From Chondrilla cf. caribensis (Eukaryota; Porifera; Demospongiae; Chondrillida; Chondrillidae), in the NCBI GenBank assembly GCA_964020155.1, contig OZ026562.1, positions 2,141,001 to 2,205,000 of the forward strand: a DNA stretch of 64,000 nt, written 5' to 3'. Position 1 is the first letter of the stretch. Each line of letters begins with the position of its first letter. Shown piece by piece: positions 3,101 to 63,464 of the stretch. The translations under genes were made by a program, and so were the position numbers. Below the pieces are notes generated by a model that saw nothing but the letters and a program-made list of their open reading frames with translations, searched no databases and was not told the DNA's origin.

Positions 3101-4202
3101 TTCTCCAAATACAGAACATCTTTCAGGCTGCATTACCGTTCCACCTTGTCTAGTATGTGGAACACTTTTTGAAACTAAATTTTTGAATAGAGATGGAAAA
3201 ATCATACATACAAATCAGACTGGTATGTTGATATATTACATAGCAGTCTAGTAGTCCATATTATGATAATTGTTTCTTCTACAATTACAATTAATAATAT
3301 TCGTAATTATAAATTATTATAGTTACTGTAGCAGTAAGTATCCATTTATTTTATTCAATTACCTTTTCTCAATTTATCACCAATGATCATTTCTTTTGCA
3401 ATTTTCGTAAGGGAAATTTCATCGATGCTTTTCCTCTTCCAGCAATTCCAAACTTTGCATTCATTACTATTATGCGGAAATATGCAGGTGTTTCTTGGAG
3501 ACCTGTTACAGTCCTGGTAGGTGTGGTTGAAACGATAATTCAAGCGCTTCTCGATCATTCGCCCAACATTGAAAGGCGTAGGCCGTATAATGGTATGCGG
3601 AGGGTCTTTCCTCATCCAGACAAAGCCTTCCTTGTAGCCGGGTCCATGCTCTCCAAAGCATGCAGAACTCTTGAATTTATTCAGCAGTAACAGCGGTAAA
3701 TTTTTGAAACAGGCAACACAGACAGGGCTGCCTGACGATCCACGCACTATTATATAATAGCAATAAACTATATAAAAGCACGGTATGAAGACAATTAATA
3801 CCTGCATATCCTCTTTCTTTAGTTACAAAATTGATTTTAGATTCAGGTAGCTACGGAATCTAAACGTCTTAGATCCCTCACCTTCCTTCAGTATTACGTC
3901 ATTTTCATAAACAATGGTCGCTTGGAGTCTCTGTAGCAGTAGATTCGAAAACAGTCTGGCTATTTGTAGGTATTCATGAACAACCAGGTCACATATACTG
4001 AAGTTAATCAAATTCTACTTAGCCTATTATACGCCATTGCTGAGCCTTGCAATCAGCTTACCGGTGATCTCTTGTGTTTTCCAGGATGTAAACATAGGCT
4101 GCGACAAAGGGCTTCCGGACCATAACGTTTCAGGCACGCCCTACAGAGCGGCTGTAAGCCATACACGTCATTCACATCTGCGCCACCATATCTAGTTGCC
4201 AT
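139..4202 (-). CDS. HELZ/MOV10-family SF1 RNA helicase, N-terminal part (3' end beyond left edge)
   Basis: A superfamily-1 RNA helicase of the UPF1-like group. Relatives (MOV10, HELZ, HELZ2) act in cytoplasmic RNA decay and antiviral or anti-transposon defence. Exons on the minus strand, 5' to 3': about 4062-4202 (ATG at 4200-4202, Cys-rich with CRAC and two later Cys), about 3882-3970, 3363-3746 (zinc-finger-like, with a C-x-F-P-H-N block), 2958-3174 (an NYKTWF-type block as found before the helicase core of MOV10), 771 to about 1714 (Walker A GPFGTGKT, motif II DEAAQ, motif III GDHLQ) and 139-316 (GLSISLLRRL, then NYRCAP). The last two exons join in phase 0. The joins 4062 to 3970 and 2958 to 1714 do not match in phase by my reading, so an exon or splice site is missed or the gene carries a lesion. 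DEAAQ and GDHLQ fit HELZ/HELZ2 better than MOV10. The rest of the RecA2 domain lies outside the window. Paralogue assignment is not secure. Confidence 0.8.
1740..2957. other. Long intron of the helicase gene with a GC-richer block and foldback
   Basis: No coding exon is recognised here, although the phase mismatch across it suggests one could be hidden. About 2080-2445 is visibly richer in G+C and CpG than its surroundings and ends in a near-perfect hairpin at about 2404-2442, with arms TAGTAGGTGAGCCCGCC and its complement around AAA. The block looks like an inserted element, but no terminal duplication or family was recognised. Confidence 0.5.
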
Positions 4203-4465
4203 TCTACCACGCCAACTTAATCCGCCAGCAACATGCACAAACCGTAACAACTCTACGGCTAGGAGAAACCGAAACAGGTTTATGCCTATTCGACTCAGTG
4301 TCTTCGCGTAAATACCGGTCGTGTTGAGATAAACCGATCTTCCATATAAGTATAACTTAATTATTAACATCGGTTTCTAGGAATGTAAACTTTTCGTCTG
4401 AAACGATGGACATTTATATGCATTACAATGGTATTATAACAAAATAAAACAAACATCCGGATATA
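4203..4465. promoter_or_regulatory. Gap upstream of the helicase start codon, next to the transposon
   Basis: This 263-bp AT-rich stretch separates the helicase ATG from the left target duplication of the transposon. It must hold the proximal promoter of the helicase gene. No TATA box or other decisive motif was identified. Before insertion it was continuous with 12107-12819 upstream of the STAG gene. Confidence 0.4.
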
Positions 4466-4473
4466 GGCCTACG
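4466..4473. repeat. Left 8-bp target site duplication of the MULE
   Basis: GGCCTACG lies directly before the left inverted repeat and recurs without mismatch at 12099-12106 directly after the right one. Mutator-like elements usually make duplications of 8-11 bp. A perfect duplication points to a recent insertion. Confidence 0.9.
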
Positions 4474-4582
4474 GGTCGTTACTAAAACCTGGGATGGAAT
4501 GGGACGAATATCACGTGACATGGGACAGAGCGCGCGTGACCTGGGACTGACGTCACACCACTGGGACTGAACAAAATGGCTA
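4474..4582 (+). repeat. Left terminal inverted repeat of the MULE (109 bp)
   Basis: It matches the complement of 11970-12098 along its whole length, apart from a few base changes and one 20-bp insertion in the right copy. It contains CACGTG and the palindrome TGACGTCA, plus repeated GGGAC-type blocks that are candidate transposase-binding sites. The match stops just before the first ATG of the element gene. Confidence 0.92.
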
Positions 4583-4619
4583 CTTCTTGTTGAGTACGTA
4601 GTTGATGGCTTGAAAAATT

Positions 4620-7600
4620 ATGGATTCTGTCCAAAAGTCGAAGAAAATACCGTGTAACCTTCTAAGGTTAGTTTTCATCCATTTTTATCATGTGTTAGTG
4701 ATTCATTTGTCTGTCTTATTACATTAGTTACAGTACTTCTGTTTTTTTATCATCAGTTTAAAACTGTAGCTGCCTCTTCCTGAACTTATTTTTCTTTGGT
4801 TATTTGGTTTATGAAGTTTAAGTTAAGTATATATTTTTTATGATTTCAACATTTCTTTAATTATCAACTAACTTTCCTGTATTTTTATATGCAATCTAAT
4901 TATCAATGTTTGTAAATACAATGTCTATATATAGGATAATGATTTAATGGTTATTTTTTATTGAATCCTTTTGCGCGGGAAGTACCACGTGTTTTAGTCG
5001 ATCCGTATCGAATTTGAAACATGTCTCGAATTGTGTGCTGTTCAAGGACTGTTTTGCATGTACGAGAGGTAGAAAAGCTCTTGAGGTCTCCTCCTGGCGA
5101 TAAGGTTTCAAGTCAACCACCCGTGAAACCAAAAGGTGGAGAAGTGTACCTTTTTCAAGGGAGAACATCCACATCAGGTGATCATACATATCATACAGTA
5201 TTAGAATCACGCCAGCATGCAGCCTATATATCAACAGATATATCGTAGTAGCAATAATTCACATCATCATCAACATGTAGGACATTATAAATGCAGAATA
5301 ATTATTGTGACACCAACATAAACAAAGGACATAAAAGAAAAATAGGAATGTAATATCCAGGTTTTATATTTGTATATGCATCATATTGGAGACATAATCT
5401 ACAATAAAGAAGAATATAATATTGATGAGGTATTTTATATGTACATATACATAGATATATAATATTAAAACACATTATGTAACATTCCGATAATGCAATA
5501 ATATCCCATTTTGAAACTATGAACAGATGATTGGAAGGCAGATCAGTATCGCTGGTATTGTCAGGGAACAACCAAATTGCCCAGACCGTCACCAACATTG
5601 GTGAAGCGATACTATTGTATTGACTCACCTGAAGGCCCGAAGAGCACCTTCAAACGCCATGCCTACCAACTCATAGATGATCCATTGGTGACGCTGGTTC
5701 ACTACCTGGGGGACGAAAATGCCGTAATTCCCTTTGCGCATAGGAGTTCAAAAGAGGAAATTCAGACCCCTTTCTTTCGGACAGCACCCTCCTACCTTAA
5801 TTCCCTTCGGGAAAAAGTGCAAGGCCAGCAACCCAGCCACATTTATAAGGAGGAGGTGGCAACAGTTCTCAGTCGGGTGGGACCAGAATACGTACCAACA
5901 GCTGCCCCGCGGAACATGAAACAACTACGAAACCTCCGCCACCATTCCTTGCAAAATTTTAGGCTGTCAAGTGATGACATATTTAATGTCCACCAGATAG
6001 CCTATGATCTGAATGGCTATGTAACGCGTATACAAACCTTCCCTGATTTGGAGGTGGTATTTGGGTTGTCCGAGATCATCAGTGAGCTTGATAACATGCT
6101 TGCCATTGGAGACTCTGGACAACTATTATCATATGATACCACCTTCAATCTAGGAGATTTCTATCTATCAGCAATAATCTTCCGTCACACAGCATTTAAA
6201 GGGAATCCTTGCATCCCTGGAGTATTTCTACTCCATGAGAGAAAATTGACAAGCACACACCAAAATTTCTTTCGTTCCGTCAAAGCAATGGTTCCATCAT
6301 TGAACAGGAGTCAGTCACCTATAGTGACTGACCAGGAGAAAGCCATCATCAATGCCATTGCTGCAGAAGTACCCCAGATGCCTCATGTCTACTGCTGGAA
6401 TCATGTTTTACAGGACATGTGTAGGTGGTTGCGAGAGCATGGTGCCCCTAGTGAAGATATCACAGTGTACATGGAGCATGTTAGGCAACTTCTACATCAA
6501 CCGTCAGAAGAGGCCTACCAAACCCTCCTAAAGAAACACAGAATTACATGGGATGAAACATTCAATGCATATTATACAAACAGCATTCACAAGGTGATTG
6601 CTGAGAAATTAGGAAGATGGCAATTGGAGAAGCTGCATACCTACAACCCCTACAGTGGTGTAACGACCAACCAATCAGAGGCGTTCAACAGGGTCGTGAA
6701 AGACTTACAGCAATGGAAGGAAGCCCCTGTAGATGTAATGATCCTATCCCTTTTTCAGCTCCAGACCTACCTCTACAACGAAATACAACGTGGTATGTGT
6801 GGCTTGGGGGAATACAGACTGAAGAGCAACTATCGGAGTCTACTGAAAGAACCAGGAGAAGTTGACCTGCTGAAATGTGAAAAGCCTGCCAAAATAGTTG
6901 CACTTCTGCAACCGCAACCAAACAAAAAGATGACTATAGATGGTAGGTGACAAATTCAAAGCATTACAGCTAATGCAATAGTAGTCACTTGACACACACG
7001 CAATAACACTGGATGAGTACATAACTTCTTCAGAATACAGGACTATTTGTAATATATCCTGGTATCTACTGCTATCAATGTAGACAAAGTGAAGTCTAAT
7101 TCCTCCACAATAAAAGAAAGCATGGACCCGGGTACTTGATTTGAAATGCTTATGTACGTGTGTATGTAGTGTATGTATACGATGCTCAATCCATATAGGT
7201 GATACATATACATCTGTGATGACAACTCCCTCAAGAGTTGATGTTGACAAGACAGCAGTGGTCACAACTTCTTCAACAGCTAGCACGGACCTGGGTACAT
7301 GATTTAAAATGCTCACGTACGTGTATATTATGTACTGCATGTATATGATGCTCAATCCATATAGGTGATACATATACATCTGTGACAACAACTCCCTCAA
7401 GAGTTGATGTTGACAAGCCGGCAGTGGTCACAACTTCTTCAAAAGCCAGCAATGACACAAGTATGTATGTGTGATGCAGAAATCATTATTGTTAATATGT
7501 TAATGTACACATCAAATTTATTCACGAAATACTTCATTTCAAATAACATACTAGGTAACACGTCGCCAAAAGGTTCACTGACCCAAATTGCTCAGGCTCG

Positions 7601-9013
7601 GAGGGTAGTTGACACAGATAATATCTCTTTTGATTCACACATACGGGTCTGGAATGTTAAGGGTACTTCAGGCACACCACGAGTGGTAACATTACATCCA
7701 AAAGAAACATGCAGTTGCCCCAGTAGCAACTGCTGCTATCATATCATGGCTGTGAAGATGGTACTGGGACAGACGGATTTTAATGAGAAAAAGAGGATAA
7801 ACTTGACGCAGCTGCGAAAAAGGAGCAGAAGTAGGAAAGACAAAAAGTCAGGGAGGAAGAAGCCTCGAGAAGGAGATGTGGATAGTGAGCTTGGAATTAA
7901 TACCTACCTGCTCATCTGATCTCACCTAAGCCAATTATTTCACTACACAGGTATAGTCGAACTACTGCCTGCACCAAAAACAGGAAATGAACCAGAAAGT
8001 AAACTGAGTTTAATTCAACTTAGTCTAGTTGAAAGTAGTCAAACGTATGTTTTCTTTCATCCTTGCTATAAATAGCAAGAGTGTGTCAGTGTGCTGGCTG
8101 TGCTAAACCAGACTGCAAGGTATGCATAAATTGCCGAGACATGCCACGACATGGTGGCCCTGGTAAAATAAGGAAAAGGTGCAAAGAGCGAAACTGTGTA
8201 GGTATATGTATGCTGGACATACTTGAATGTGGTAATCAGATAACAACAGAATTACATTGCCCTAAAAGTGCCATTTTAATACTGCCCAGGGGAGACTTTA
8301 AAAACATCTGTCTTACCCAAATTGGAAAGTATAGACTCTGAGCAACCAGCAAGTGGTATCACTGATAGTGATGATGATTGTAAGTCATTTGCAATCAGTA
8401 ATGCTATTCTGTAATCGATATTAAATATTTATTCTGATTAAATTGCAAATGTAGTACCTGATGTGTCACACACTCTTTCTGGCAATGAAAAGAAAGTCAG
8501 TTCCTCCAACCAGACTACATCTGCCTCTACAGTACAATCAGCTTCTATTGAATTTCCTATTCTCAAAAGTACTGAGTTTTGGGATATATCACGTACGTTA
8601 ATCATAGGAAGGCTAATACATTATAGCATACATGTACATACATGTTAATTATTCAACTCCATAACTACACAGCAAGGAAGCGGGTGTGGTCAAGAACATT
8701 TAACCTCGAAGAGGTGACAAAAGCAATATCTGTGTCGGAACCTCAGTGTACAATGGAGTGGTACACTTTTGCACAAGGCCATGATTTGCATGATGTTCTC
8801 ATAGGAAAAGACATTTCTGGAGAAGTACGCAATAAAATATGTCCCAACTGTGTAAGATATTTTGTGTAATTCATACACCTAGCTGATTGATTTCACAGGC
8901 TGTGGATGCATTCCTCAATCTCTTATCAGCAAAAGCACGCACTGCAGTAAGTCCCACATAAATTGCAACATTCTACCTACACATTTATACGTACATACAT
9001 ACATACGTATATG

Positions 9014-9112
<99 letters not shown>

Positions 9113-11850
9113 TACATACCGCATTCTGTCGCAAGTGTGTATACCAAATATGTAATATGCAAGTGAAAAGGAAAAAATTGTGAGAATCTAAACTATGGGT
9201 AGTCATGTTAATCTTATCTACTATTATCTCGTTTGTACATAATATGTATGTGTAGGGTGTTGAAGTTCATGTGATGACACATAAATTCCATACTTTTATG
9301 GCCACTGGTAACTACAGTATACAACAATGGATACCTGTAAGTTTGAACCAGAAAAAGGACATTTGTGTTATGCAGTAGAAATTATTATACATTAGCATTT
9401 TTCTATACTTAGCTGGAAGGATTGCAGGGATATGAATACATTATGGTACCAGTTGTGAAAAATAGCCATTGGACATTAGGGGTAAGTTGCTACAATGGGA
9501 TGAATATGTAGTGGGTATCCAGTATGACCTTCATTCTGCCAGGTTATAGACAAAGGCAATGCAAATGTAAGCTACTATGATTCCTTGGGCAACCGAAAAT
9601 GCACTTATCTACCTTTACTGAAGTGAGCGATAAAGCTGATAACCAGCTGTACAGTCTTAGTCCAATGTAATGACATATTGGGTATTGTGTTGACAGAGAA
9701 CTGGCAAGAGTTGCATTTCCTACTATTAAAAAGTGGTTGGAATTTAAGCCCTCGGTGAGTAAATGTTAGTATATACTTTACACATGAAACAGTGGTGTAC
9801 TATGTTCATACGTGTGTACGTCATATGAAGCCTGGAGAATATTATAAAGGATGTATATGCATATCCTGTTCCCTTTCTAAATGTGGCTCTCACAGACACT
9901 TCCTCAACAACGTGGCTGTCATGATTGTGGCATATTTTTGGTCATGGTAGGTTGGATTGCATAGATAAATGTGACACACAGCAATGATGTACATCAATCA
10001 TCCATTTCACTTCTATCTGCTTCCAGTATGCCTTTTATATTATGCTCAAGGCACCATATGACTTTGCTCAAGTACGTATGTATCTATTATACTCATGTGT
10101 GTACAACTGGGTTCATGCGGTAAGCTAACACCCACAGGTTGACATGACACATATTAGAATGTGGCTGGTTGTCATGCTGGTGAAATACCAAGATCATCGG
10201 TACGCATGAATGTACAGATAAATCAATGTACTATATGCAATGCCATACATATTATACCCAAATATTATATAGGTTGGTAACAGATATGTATGAAAAAGCG
10301 AAACGTTTTCCAATTTTGAAGAGGAAACTGTAAGTTCATACGCAACTCAATGACATACGTAGCATGTGCTTGAGAGGTGCAGCATGCAGCTGCTAGTTAC
10401 AATATTTCCACCAAACAGAAAACTACAGCAACAACCTAATGAAGAAGTTAAAGCAAAGTCAGTTTCTTTACAAGGATACCAGTGAGGCACAGCACACACA
10501 ATATCCTTTGAATGTAACTTCATAGTACATAGTCTACACATACATACATACATCAGTATTTTATGACCATTAATTCTGTGTTACCGCCAACCATGTATGT
10601 ATACATGTATATCATATATATGTATATTATGTTACTACAGTAATGGTGATGAATGTGTAACCCAGAAACAAGACAACGAAACAAGGTACATATATTTGTA
10701 GCATATTGATTGCAAAAGTACCATCATGATGCAAATAATGGCTTAACACTGCAATTAATCAAATGCAGACTTTCTGACGAGAATTCCAATAACAAAGAGG
10801 AGTCTGACAATGACGTAATGGAGGAGTACCCAGTTGATGGTAAGAACTCCATACATATGTATAATCGTATATACAAATTATATTCATTTTTACAAAGTAC
10901 ATGTAGTACCTAGTACCTTTATAAGTCTGCTTCTTATTGTCAGATGACATTCTCATAGCAACAATTGATTACAGTACAGCACCTGAAATTGACGAAGAAG
11001 ACATATCAACTTCAATGAATGATCACCCTAGGAATTGGGTAGCAGTCACAATGAACATGATTAAAGACTACAAACCATTGCCAACGTGAGTTGTACTACA
11101 TTTTAACTTAGATTAATATCTGCTAATTATTGTACAATCACTATAATATTATTACTCTGAAAACAAACACTATGTTCCTAAACTTATGTTTGTATAATGT
11201 ATGTAGATTGGGACCATTTACAAAGTCAGTAGTCAGGAATACTCTCAGGAACCAAGAGGTGAGTGAATCTGTGAGCATTGCATGCAAATACATACATATG
11301 TACAACATACATATGAGAAGTTTGTTGTTAAACATATCAGGAGTACTTCATCAGTAAATTGAAGAGAGGCAGTCACTTTTATGATAAGCTACTTGAAAAC
11401 AGGAAGGCTATTGTCATGACTGACTACTTTGGGCTTGGACCGATAAGAGGACAGCTTGTAAGCCCAGTTACTGAAATGCAATGAACAGTAACCTATATAC
11501 TGATTATTGTCTACAGATGGTAGAAGTACAAAGTTACTTGTTTACCATTGCTTTACCAGTAATGCAATGGCAACAAAAGACAGCGAGAGATGTTTGTGAC
11601 TTTGTTCTTTACCCAGAGGTAAGGTTTCATATAAGGGAAGCATTGTACAGAATGCACAATCTTAGAATCCACATGTGAATCAAGGGGAGCACATTCATAG
11701 GATGAACATTGGTATCACTCTTTCGAATCTCATTCTTACTTCTTACAGGCAATGGTATTACTGATAAGAGAAATTATGGGAGAAAAAGAAACAGAAGCTC
11801 GAAGATTGTATTTAACAGGGAACATTAGGACTATGTACTCGGAGCTGTAA
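4620..11850 (+). CDS. MULE transposase with SWIM, CXXC-like and Ulp1-like protease domains (26 exons, 1,214 aa)
   Basis: A predicted transposase-protease of a DNA transposon. Exons: 4620-4666, 5047-5177, 5527-6942, 7555-7884, 7951-7998, 8076-8197, 8343-8379, 8455-8592, 8673-8851, 8899-8946, 9256-9336, 9413-9481, 9543-9622, 9697-9754, 9896-9946, 10027-10071, 10138-10199, 10273-10329, 10419-10457, 10641-10685, 10769-10839, 10944-11085, 11207-11258, 11365-11457, 11517-11618, 11749-11850. Lengths total 3,645 nt, all joins keep frame, and there is no internal stop. Exon 3 holds the DDE core: SYDTTFNLG (first D), VTDQEKAI (second D), CWNH, and NQSEAFN (E). Exon 4 holds a SWIM finger (CSCPSSNCCYH). 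Exon 6 holds a CXXC-like finger with eight Cys. Exons 12-15 hold protease His (SHWTLG), Asp (YYDSLG), Gln (QQRG) and Cys (HDCG). The start is the least certain part: ATG 5021 is an alternative to ATG 4620. The last exons, after 10273, are acidic and not recognised. Confidence 0.85.
5047..5720 (+). other. CG-1-like N-terminal DNA-binding module of the MULE protein (tentative)
   Basis: Spliced across exons 2 and 3, the order of blocks is GGEVYLFQ, then DDWKADQYRWYCQG, then KRYYC, FKRHAYQL and LVHYLGDE. The CG-1 domain of CAMTA transcription factors shows the same order: a GS-x-x-L/Y strand, DG-x-x-W, a Y/C strand, F-x-R-R-x-Y-W-L, then I-V-L-V-H-Y. The join is in phase (one base plus two bases make GAT). 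The similarity is by eye only. The block could instead be a MULE-specific N-terminal domain convergent with CG-1. Confidence 0.45.
7120..7450. repeat. Tandem duplication of about 163 bp in the transposon's third intron
   Basis: The segment beginning near 7122 (CATGGACCCGGGTACTTG) recurs near 7285 (CACGGACCTGGGTACATG). Both copies continue through GATGCTCAATCCATATAGG and CTCAAGAGTTGATGTTGACA with few differences. The duplication is intronic and leaves the splice sites at 6943 and 7554 untouched. Confidence 0.85.
8076..8197 (+). other. CXXC-type zinc finger exon in the MULE gene
   Basis: This exon encodes C-x-C-x2-C-x3-D-C-x2-C-x2-C, then RDMPRHGGPGKIRKRC and K-E-R-N-C. The two Cys triplets, the Asp before the second triplet, the GG-P-G-K turn and the terminal C-x4-C match the CpG-binding CXXC fold of CFP1, MLL and TET/IDAX proteins. 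The first triplet is C-x-C-x2-C rather than C-G-x-C-x2-C, one residue short. In CXXC proteins this fold binds unmethylated CpG. That role here is inferred. Confidence 0.75.
8899..10199 (+). other. Ulp1/SENP-like (C48) cysteine protease domain of the MULE gene
   Basis: Eight small exons encode a complete catalytic set in Ulp1 order: His in VPVVKNSHWTLG (9413-9481), Asp in SYYDSLG (9543-9622), the oxyanion Gln in PQQRG and the nucleophile Cys in HDCGIF (9896-9946), followed by an amphipathic helix with HIRMWL. Ulp1 and SENP enzymes process SUMO and remove it from targets. Transposon-borne versions have no settled substrate. No key residue is missing. Confidence 0.85.
9014..9106. repeat. (CA)n followed by (TA)n array in a transposon intron
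   Basis: About 60 bp of uninterrupted CA is followed by about 30 bp of TA within the intron between exons 8899-8946 and 9256-9336. The same dinucleotide is common in the host introns. Confidence 0.95.
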
Positions 11851-11969
11851 ACCTGTTTCTGTGTTAAAATGATATAAGTTAAACCACGTACAAACTATAC
11901 ACAATTGCAAAATCGCACGAACTATACACAATTGCAAAATTAATGTAACTTACGTATAAACATTAAAAT

Positions 11970-12098
11970 TAGCCATTTTGTTCAGTCCCAGTGGTGTGAC
12001 GTCAGTTCCAGGTCACACGCGCTCTGTCCCATGTCACGTGCGCCTGTCCCATGTCACGTGATATTCGTCCCATTCCATCCCAGGTTTTAGTAACGACC
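11970..12098 (-). repeat. Right terminal inverted repeat of the MULE (129 bp)
   Basis: It is the inverted partner of 4474-4582. It differs mainly by a 20-bp tandem insertion that duplicates the block CACGTGACATGGGACA. The inner end lies 120 bp after the stop codon of the element gene. That short gap (11851-11969) is AT-rich and must carry the transcript end. Confidence 0.92.
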
Positions 12099-12106
12099 GG
12101 CCTACG
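12099..12106. repeat. Right 8-bp target site duplication of the MULE
   Basis: GGCCTACG is identical to 4466-4473 and directly follows the terminal GTAACGACC of the element. Confidence 0.9.
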
Positions 12107-26556: not shown

Positions 26557-28437
26557 TTAGTGTAGTCCAAGTGAATATGAGCGACCATTGGGATTATGAA
26601 TTGGTGATACAACTGGACTTGTAACACACCACTCGTACCAGACACTACTCTGGGTCACCTTTCTCCACAGGCATATTTCCAAGCAGCTGCCGGATGGAAG
26701 AAAAATGGGAGTTTTGATTGGGAAGAAAACTGAAAACCAGCTAAACATGTCAGGCGTGTGGGTTGCTGGAACGATACTCATAAGGATGTCCTTATACAGG
26801 ACTGCTTCAAAGAATCCGCTGAACCCATGCATCATGCAGTCTTGTGTAATGTCGAACACAAGCTTTGCAAAACGTTCATTGTTGAAGGGAACACAGGGGT
26901 TCGGATGAACAAACGTGAAGCACTGTTTTGGCTCTGCAATGCGGTGGTAGTTCTTCTGGTAGACAACATATCCTGTTTCATATGGTACATCTGGGGATTT
27001 CCACTGCTCGGCATACTGCGCTACGTCAACGTGCAGTCGTGGAGAAGAAGTGGGTGCCACATACGATGTGTAGGAGCTCGGTATGCTGATGGCATCTTTC
27101 TTTAGAAATCGCTGAGCACCATCCAGACATTCTGGAGACAGTTCATTGTCACCAAAGGATCCTAGCAGCTCACTGATGAGAATGTCGGCTTTCTCGGGTG
27201 CATTCCACTCTCGCATATCGTTGCAAATGACTGTAACATCACTATCTGCCCACTTCTCAGATTGGAGATTCTTCAGTGTGATGAATGCATTGGGGTTCTT
27301 CTCGACAGCGTAGACCTTGATTCTCCGCCCTGTTCTCTGACTAGCCCGTAAGCTGGCCTCCACTAAGGGACCTCTACCAGCACCAACAACCATGACAGTG
27401 GTGATGGTACTCTCCTTCTTATCATCGGGCACTCTGTCCAAAAGAGCTTGGAAGACGGCCTCTTCGTATAACCGGTATTTGGTATTGTCCTTTTCAAAAA
27501 CTTCATACGTCTGAGAGTCTAGGTTGTCCTTCAATGGCTGTAATGGTGCCTGTAGGTAGTCTTCGTAGCCTTTAGCAAAAGCTTCAATTGGATTGGGTGC
27601 ACACGTTGCCCCATAGAGATGGTTGAGGTACTGCCAGTAGAACTCAATCGCCTTGCCTGTCTTACTCCCACCACTGAGGATAAACTGAGCTTTCAGCTGT
27701 AGGAGCTCATAGAAGAAACCCTGAAGTGCCTTTGAGAGTACAGGGAAGCCCTTTTGATTTGAGAGGAAAATACTGGTGTGGAACACGGCTGCTTTGACAG
27801 GTTCACCCAACCAGCGCCGCACACTAGCTTCGGATGGCAGCTTGGCCGGGACCTCGAGAACAACACTCAACTTGCGACTCCCACAGCACATGGTGCGTAC
27901 GGTGTTCCACCAGTGCCACGGCTCCACATTCGGGGACAATTGGTCTTCTTTGGAACTTTCTTCCCCATCACATGCGGGGGGCACCATTGGCACCTTCACC
28001 CACACCATGCTCAAGGACTTGTTCTGAACCAATGCATTGAGGTGCCTGCCCAGGTTGACACAAGGGGCGTTCTTCAACTCGACCAGCACCGCTGGGAGAC
28101 CGAGGTGCAGGGCAAAGGCTGTCTCCTCGCAAAAAGCCCTCTCCGAGTTAGTTCGCGTGAAGTCGACTTCGCTATCCATATCGATCCAAGGAGAAAACTT
28201 CCCGACTACAAGGGAGGTCCATTCCGAGCTTGATAACAGCAAATCAGATCTGGTTAGGGGGCACATTCGATTGATTTTTTGCTGAAAGTGGTCTCTTTCG
28301 AAACGAGGGTGAAAGATTGGCGCGCATATGAAATCAAACCCAGTACTTGAGGCTTTGTGAAGTTCTGTTGGCAGGTCAATCGCATGATCCAGGTCTTTTC
28401 CACACGACACAAAGCTTTTCTGTCCACTCCCGCTCAT
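26557..28437 (-). CDS. PRMT5: Protein arginine N-methyltransferase 5 (PRMT5), intronless, 626 aa
   Basis: PRMT5 is the main type II arginine methyltransferase. With WDR77/MEP50 it makes symmetric dimethylarginine on Sm proteins and histones, using S-adenosylmethionine. The N-terminus (FDFICAPIFHPRF) matches the TIM-barrel domain that binds MEP50. The SAM-binding loop VVGAGRGPL is near residue 347, the double-E loop SELLGSFGDNELSPE near 417, and the PRMT5-specific Phe in TYEVFEKD near 310. All catalytic hallmarks are present and the length is close to the 637 aa of human PRMT5. The whole gene is one exon while both neighbours are split into dozens. It is convergent with STAG, and its start codon lies only 133 bp from the midasin stop codon. 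Confidence 0.97.
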   Translation of the reverse strand: MSGSGQKSFVSCGKDLDHAIDLPTELHKASSTGFDFICAPIFHPRFERDHFQQKINRMCPLTRSDLLLSSSEWTSLVVGKFSPWIDMDSEVDFTRTNSERAFCEETAFALHLGLPAVLVELKNAPCVNLGRHLNALVQNKSLSMVWVKVPMVPPACDGEESSKEDQLSPNVEPWHWWNTVRTMCCGSRKLSVVLEVPAKLPSEASVRRWLGEPVKAAVFHTSIFLSNQKGFPVLSKALQGFFYELLQLKAQFILSGGSKTGKAIEFYWQYLNHLYGATCAPNPIEAFAKGYEDYLQAPLQPLKDNLDSQTYEVFEKDNTKYRLYEEAVFQALLDRVPDDKKESTITTVMVVGAGRGPLVEASLRASQRTGRRIKVYAVEKNPNAFITLKNLQSEKWADSDVTVICNDMREWNAPEKADILISELLGSFGDNELSPECLDGAQRFLKKDAISIPSSYTSYVAPTSSPRLHVDVAQYAEQWKSPDVPYETGYVVYQKNYHRIAEPKQCFTFVHPNPCVPFNNERFAKLVFDITQDCMMHGFSGFFEAVLYKDILMSIVPATHTPDMFSWFSVFFPIKTPIFLPSGSCLEICLWRKVTQSSVWYEWCVTSPVVSPIHNPNGRSYSLGLH

Positions 28438-28570
28438 TTTACAACCACGTGGTTAAAAGTCCGCATTCTATTCGCATAACTCCGTCAAAACACGAAAATA
28501 AAAATTCAATGTTCACAATAATTAACGATGATGTACATTGCGAGAAATGCATGAATTGAATGAGATACAA
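28438..28570 (-). promoter_or_regulatory. 133-bp gap between the MDN1 stop and PRMT5 start, with palindromic E-box
   Basis: This short gap must serve as the end of the midasin transcript and the proximal promoter of PRMT5, both on the minus strand. About ten bases before the PRMT5 start codon lies AACCACGTGGTT, a 12-bp palindrome centred on CACGTG, the binding site of Myc/Max, USF and related bHLH-ZIP factors. No AATAAA is seen in the gap on the coding strand. Confidence 0.55.

Positions 28571-63464
<34,894 letters not shown>

Follow-up and report, generated by a model that had tools for sequence, protein, structure and literature searches.

The element and its spliced gene

Positions 4466-12106 of the window (the whole 64,000-nucleotide stretch of DNA analysed here, which lies on contig C17 of a 137-Mb genome of 37 contigs) are occupied by a MULE. 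The element is bounded by a perfect 8-bp duplication (TSD), GGCCTACG, whose left copy at 4466-4473 is identical to the right copy at 12099-12106. Both copies directly adjoin the terminal inverted repeats (TIRs), and GGCCTACG has no further occurrence on the window's + strand; its reverse complement is found twice elsewhere. The left TIR (4474-4582, + strand) contains CACGTG, GCGCGCGTG and TGACGTCA and has a CpG o/e of 0.92, and the right TIR (11970-12098, - strand) carries an extra 20-bp unit. The TIR cores measure 109 and 129 bp, a difference in length that results from one 20-bp indel; in their alignment 124 of 129 bases are equal, with 5 mismatches. The outermost 38 bp of the two TIRs are identical, and the similarity stops about 130/152 bp inward. 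With a MULE-type DDE domain, an 8-bp TSD (the range for the class being 8-11 bp) and long TIRs, the features of the MULE class are present. Scans of the window for tRNA and Rfam families gave no matches.

Between the TIRs lies a single spliced gene running from an ATG at 5021 to a TAA at 11850, with GT-AG junctions, compatible phases and no internal stop. The junctions were picked by hand and then checked by script. The resulting model has 27 exons and 26 introns and spans 3,963 coding nt, corresponding to 1,320 aa; intron lengths range from 35 to 349 nt with a middle value of 82. The initial annotation had proposed 26 exons, 25 introns and 3,645 nt, figures that we could not reproduce, our model having one more exon and 318 more nt. 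Otherwise its structural description stands: the perfect 8-bp duplication and the inverted repeats of 109 and 129 bp are as it gave them, the splice phases agree and no stop interrupts the frame from 5021 to 11850, the gene is indeed unusually rich in introns, and TSD, long TIRs, MULE domain and uninterrupted spliced frame together make up a structurally complete MULE.

All exons lie on the + strand. Exon 1 (5021-5177) holds the ATG and the first half of a CG-1-type domain; exon 2 (5527-6942) holds the remainder of CG-1 (to about 5708) followed by the MULE transposase domain (about 6126-6413). Exons 3 and 4 (7199-7460) are tandem duplicates of a 96-nt exon, within a repeat unit of 166 bp that includes the intron. 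Exon 5 (7555-7884) encodes a SWIM zinc finger (about 7686-7760) and then a basic stretch, and retention of intron 5 (7885-7950) leads to an in-frame stop at 7917-7919, just after this SWIM/basic region. Exon 6 (7951-8044) and exon 7 (8080-8201, with the CXXC zinc finger at about 8084-8197) meet at the weakest junction of the model: intron 6 (8045-8079) is only 35 nt long with the acceptor AAG and is uncertain, and exon 7 begins at a later acceptor, the first choice having clashed in phase. Exons 8-10 (8290-8379, 8455-8592 and 8673-8851) form a linker, exons 11-18 (8899-10199) encode a Ulp1/SENP-like cysteine protease (Pfam C48), exons 19-22 (10273-10839) form a further linker, and exons 23-27 (10944-11850) encode a conserved C-terminal region of unknown fold.

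Domain content of the predicted protein

In an hmmscan of the whole protein, four domains exceed their Pfam cut-offs: Peptidase_C48 (48.4 bits, cut-off 20.7), MULE (PF10551; 36.9 bits, cut-off 27.6), zf-CXXC (28.6 bits, cut-off 26.5) and CG-1 (25.7 bits, cut-off 23.5). They are part of seven Pfam matches at E up to 10, the other three (Peptidase_C57, RTC4 and DNA_pol_E_B) being below their cut-offs. The SWIM finger is absent from these whole-protein matches and reaches 21.4 bits against a cut-off of 19.6 as a 100-aa segment. Accordingly, the predicted order of the putative composite transposase is CG-1, MULE DDE core, SWIM, CXXC, Ulp1/SENP-like protease and conserved C-terminus. This domain content is more unusual than the intron count.

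Within exon 2, residues D256, D321 and E437 as well as C342/H345 were assigned by eye. An NCBIfam search with exon 2 returned IS256 only, at 23 bits and far under the cut-off; IMG/VR searched with the exon-2 protein gave no match, and a single-sequence AlphaFold model of exon 2 alone was unusable (mean pLDDT 34).

When taken alone, residues 1-120 match CG-1 with 33.6 bits and an E value of 3.6e-8 over profile positions 8-114 of 116. Alternatively, the N-terminal module could be related to the WRKY/GCM1/FLYWCH fold that MULEs usually have, but lack the zinc, with CG-1 a profile cross-hit. Its best PDB match is a WRKY domain (E 0.12), the CG-1 scores of three relatives in the same genome fall under the cut-off of 23.5 (22.3, 21.2 and 13.0), and FLYWCH and FAR1 are given for several MULE groups in the accessible part of Dupeyron et al. 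2019 (PMC6446971). However, the E value and the near-complete profile coverage of the CG-1 match argue against such a cross-hit, as does the lack of any WRKY or FLYWCH Pfam match to the module at E up to 1, and we consider this alternative unlikely while keeping it in mind.

CG-1 domains bind (A/C/G)CGCG(C/G/T), or vCGCGb, according to the available sections of one report (PMC13290587). The conserved inner block of the TIRs is CACGTGACATGGGACAGAGCGCGCGTGACC, and CGCG is retained in six of seven aligned TIRs. Among the 14 vCGCGb sites of the window, 3 fall in the TIRs, which total 238 bp (binomial p = 1e-5). Compared with dinucleotide shuffles, the left TIR has 2 sites against 0.12 expected (p = 0.0045) and the right TIR 1 against 0.13 expected (p = 0.13). 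CpG-rich stretches of the window are also richer in vCGCGb (0.19 per 200 bp), and the enrichment of the CAMTA-type motif in the TIRs is suggestive only. In addition, a relative on contig C3 (see below) has a 42-bp TIR without CGCG, with one CGCG just inside one end; CG-1/CGCG recognition thus does not emerge as a general rule.

The CXXC finger has eight cysteines, and its best PDB match is the CpG-binding protein 3qmb (E 2.5e-7), which we take to be CFP1. The usual DNA-binding motif of CXXC zinc fingers is KFGG. Because the finger of the element has RHGG in its place and a C-x-C as the first cysteine pair, its binding to CpG is uncertain. A genome-wide CXXC profile search yielded at least 16 fingers above the cut-off, two of which are in the transposon family of the window element.

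For the protease, the best PDB matches are SENP1/2 (SENP1 E 1.2e-16), and residues H968, D985, Q1023 and C1029 are retained in a by-eye comparison with a SENP alignment. The C-terminal 171 residues have no PDB match, and in the C-terminal region RTC4 scores 17.3 against a cut-off of 23.7.

Relatives and copies in the same genome

Several diverged relatives are found in the same genome. The C6 relative shows 27-73% identity in tblastn pieces, the lowest of which spans an intron; its counterpart of residues 408-847 is unmatched, and a C2H2-like finger lies there, every match being below the cut-off. The C3 and C25 relatives show 41% and 40% identity, and over the transposase their frames stay open for 643 and 650 codons. 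Of these two, only C3 was profile-scored: MULE (25.3 vs 27.6), SWIM (15.3 vs 19.6) and CG-1 (21.2 vs 23.5) are below their cut-offs and a PHD finger is above (31.0 vs 24.0), and a protease-like stretch is recognised by eye only, Pfam C48 giving no match. As for CXXC, tblastn of the window protein left residues 732-769 unmatched at the C3 locus, and the genome-wide CXXC search returned no place on C3 or C25.

A TSD was sought around the C3 relative and none was found, the locus appearing rearranged. A perfect 348-bp inverted repeat (L038:1325-1672 and 7053-7400) surrounds this relative outside its 42-bp TIR, which suggests a nested or rearranged element. Another locus, on contig C23 (L042:1242-3232, - strand), has the protease and the C-terminus with the splice sites of the family; the examined stretch yielded neither a MULE or CG-1 match nor a clear TIR, and it may be a host gene or a remnant.

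The relatives also bear on the age of the introns. We tried the ends of exons 10-26 (17 per relative) and dropped scores under 35. A GT donor is found at the same residue and phase in 13 of the 14 scored exon ends of the C6 relative (exon 10 being the miss) and in all 6 scored ends of the C23 relative. Since diverged relatives keep these donors, the introns are old and the gene structure is older than the divergence of these families. For the same reason we do not regard the introns as a recent peculiarity.

Could the element nonetheless contain two genes, a MULE-SWIM transposase ending in intron 5 at the 7917-7919 stop and a downstream CXXC-Ulp1 gene? The position of this stop, immediately past the exon-5 donor, fits such an arrangement, and two-ORF MULEs are known, for example maize MuDR with mudrA and mudrB (accessible text of PMC6446971). 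Nevertheless a good GTGAGC donor and an in-phase acceptor connect both halves, and the C3 relative has the parts in the same order, though this is not decisive. We judge two genes to be improbable and retain the single 27-exon gene.

Searching the genome with the TIR gave 17 matches including the query. A 21-base end pattern with at most two mismatches found 12 ends, compared to 2 for the backward control, and ten insertions of the family (family A) were counted. Only the window copy is visible from end to end. The copy on contig C22 can be traced no further left than window position 6361; from there to the right end, 7 substitutions among 5,732 compared bases and 2 non-exon indels separate it from the window copy; from 9274 to the right end, the copy on contig C1 differs by 20 substitutions in 2,797 bases and 3 non-exon indels. 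The C1 copy is truncated or interrupted, as its sequence past window 9274 does not match. A 1,876-aa open frame at the C22 copy was rejected as an artefact of an N run. Older remains exist as well: the C7 copy, about 2.8 kb long, is a relic that has lost internal sequence but keeps both ends and an 8-bp duplication matching at 7 of 8 positions, and both C7 and a second relic, C12, are decayed, with stops, exon indels and altered splice sites.

Flanks differ among the C17, C22, C1 and C7 copies, which are thus separate insertions. The initial annotation had read the element as a recent insertion, a reading that would have lost ground if no other copy shared its ends. Copies with the same ends are present, and the near-identical C22 and C1 copies each reach the right end with flanks unlike those of C17. 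Recent mobility of the element is well supported, and its autonomy is plausible. About 0.8 kb past the C22 copy we also observed a right-end fragment of the same family (L036:9356-9580) with no mismatch over the aligned bases and one 27-bp gap, which fits the loss of one repeat unit. Local transposition or incomplete repair could have left this fragment.

Changes between copies are unevenly distributed over the gene. Between C22 and the window, 0 of 2,972 exon positions and 7 of 2,760 non-exon positions are changed (Fisher p = 0.006). Between C1 and the window the changes are 4 of 1,179 and 16 of 1,618, respectively (p = 0.066), three of the four exon changes being synonymous. Pooling both comparisons gives p = 0.0003, with one window-only change in the shared stretch counted twice. 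The small number of exon substitutions in the sister copies therefore supports both the exon map and the view that selection acts on the protein from one jump to the next. Constrained exons and a host-like intron density would also suit a domesticated or fossil copy, an old insertion retained as a host gene, but this is very unlikely given the perfect TSD, the intact ends, the near-identical sequence at two further sites with different flanks and the decay of relics C7 and C12, with their stops and altered splice sites.

Insertion sites, proposed mechanism and known systems

The window is depleted in CpG (CpG o/e 0.445, TpG o/e 1.46), with a CpG o/e of 0.92 in the TIRs and 0.43 in the interior of the element. 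For the ten family-A insertions, flanks of about 200 bp have a median CpG o/e of 1.05, eight being at 0.98 or above and two at 0.41-0.42; six of these ten sites are recognised by the end pattern or as decayed copies, and decay is also seen in C7. A related family in which no CXXC was seen (family B) has a median of 1.10 (n = 15, from 20 of 24 ends after omission of four second ends of pairs and merging of six same-flank ends). One hundred random 200-bp windows have a median of 0.42, an upper quartile of 0.78 and an upper tenth of 1.16. These windows come from 10 arbitrarily picked loci, two of twelve loci having been dropped as all N.

Flanks of both families differ from the random windows (family A, p = 0.0004; family B, p = 1e-5) and do not differ from each other (two-sided p = 0.66). 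To allow for the non-independence of windows from one locus, we also compared the flanks with the 10 locus means, which gave p = 0.006 for family A and p = 0.0005 for family B. The idea that CXXC directs insertion to CpG-rich DNA is unsupported: family B inserts in equally CpG-rich DNA, and hence CXXC does not explain these sites. Transposons need sites that allow expression without killing the host. The CpG-rich sites may reflect a preference for open DNA in general, or improved survival in such DNA, the comparison covering MULE families only. Six family-B ends (L069, L070, L071, L075, L076 and L077) have the 8-mer CAAGTTTG in common in their flanks, which looks like a single insertion multiplied inside a larger repeat. 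At the window element itself, the left flank (4066-4465) has a CpG o/e of 1.27, and the element may thus lie near a promoter.

We consider it likely that the locus holds an intact, recently mobilised and probably autonomous cut-and-paste MULE, whose one 27-exon gene encodes a composite transposase of about 1,320 residues. Its autonomy, the roles of the SUMO protease and of CXXC, and control by splicing are inferred. The CG-1 (and SWIM) part would bind the TIRs, whose conserved block has CGCG/CGTG motifs, and the DDE core would cut and join DNA with a stagger of 8 bp. At the ends, the Ulp1 part would strip SUMO from the transposase or from host repair/silencing proteins, and a preference for unmethylated ends or targets may come from the CXXC part. 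If intron 5 is retained, the product would be a short protein that has CG-1, MULE and SWIM but lacks CXXC and protease, and this may serve as a switch. The further idea of the initial annotation, that dependence on splicing confines the element to particular cells, is speculative.

More speculatively, the protein could be a chromatin-reading transposase in which CG-1/SWIM hold the CGCG ends, CXXC (PHD in the sister family) limits action to unmethylated, active-type DNA, the SUMO protease strips silencing/repair marks, and intron 5 retention toggles between the full and the short form. In this complete form we hold the proposal to be doubtful, with a low probability of being correct.

Among systems that share parts with the window element, plant Ulp1-bearing MULEs include KI-MULE/Kaonashi, and Zisupton/KDZ transposons combine SWIM and Ulp1. 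The occurrence of Ulp1 in animal MULEs is already published: in its accessible sections, Bao et al. 2010 (PMC2836005) describes Ulp1-bearing Mutator elements in hydra, lancelet and plants, which are, like the window element, MULEs encoding Ulp1/C48. The available text describes no CG-1 or CXXC in them ('cxxc' is absent from it), whereas the window element has both; a figure legend there aligns PHD domains of Ginger1 and Mutator transposases. According to the same partial text, Ginger1 has a C-terminal Ulp1, as does the window element, and one of its families has PHD. Ginger1 nonetheless has a Gypsy-type integrase, a 4-bp TSD and 0-4 introns (PMC2836005, same sections), compared to a MULE domain, an 8-bp TSD and 26 introns here. 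In Pfam, no retrovirus-type integrase matched the window protein.

The accessible part of Dupeyron et al. 2019 (PMC6446971) describes Phantom, Spectre and other animal MULEs, with which the window element has in common 8-11 bp TSDs, long TIRs, the DDE MULE domain and a SWIM or other zinc finger. The accessible part of Table 1 in that paper gives SWIM, FLYWCH, CCHC, C2H2, PHD, RING, SET, FAR1 and OTU and not CXXC or CG-1, and the word 'protease' does not occur in its available text, whereas the window element encodes an Ulp1-like protease. Zisupton/KDZ elements have an 8-bp TSD, as the window element does (accessible portion of PMC12730594). The catalytic domain of the window element matches Pfam MULE; no KDZ-type family is among the seven Pfam matches at E up to 10, which counts against KDZ only if the profile library holds a KDZ model. 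CAMTA transcription factors, as described in the available parts of two papers (PMC8428840, PMC13290587), have the CG-1-type domain in common with the element, and CGCG is present in the window TIRs. None of the TIG, ankyrin repeats and IQ motifs of CAMTA is among the seven Pfam matches of the window protein. In the open-licence literature we found no report of CG-1 or CXXC in a MULE, a provisional result.

One genome offers related MULE families with a common core and mostly CpG-rich sites that differ in their chromatin-type module (CXXC vs PHD). These differences allow a test of whether insertion is steered, or silencing sensed, by such modules, and the combination of a Mutator-type enzyme with DNA-binding modules and a SUMO-protease-like domain could contribute to an explanation of where and when these elements move. 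The element also raises the questions of how a transposase gene with 26 introns stays functional and whether the CG-1 of CAMTA and the end-binding domain of the MULE share ancestry.

Other coding frames were observed elsewhere in the window. To the left of the insertion, a helicase-like frame (684-1757, - strand; Pfam AAA_11, 69.3 bits) is a possible host gene. At 26560-28452 (- strand) lies a PRMT5 gene in one long frame, with scores of 247 bits for PRMT5 and 229 bits for the TIM barrel over the first 519 residues. Finally, an HTH_32 frame at 55166-55714 (+ strand; 40.9 bits vs a cut-off of 33.7) lies in a CpG-richer 2-kb stretch (o/e 0.79) and is perhaps a fragment of a Tc1/mariner-type transposase.
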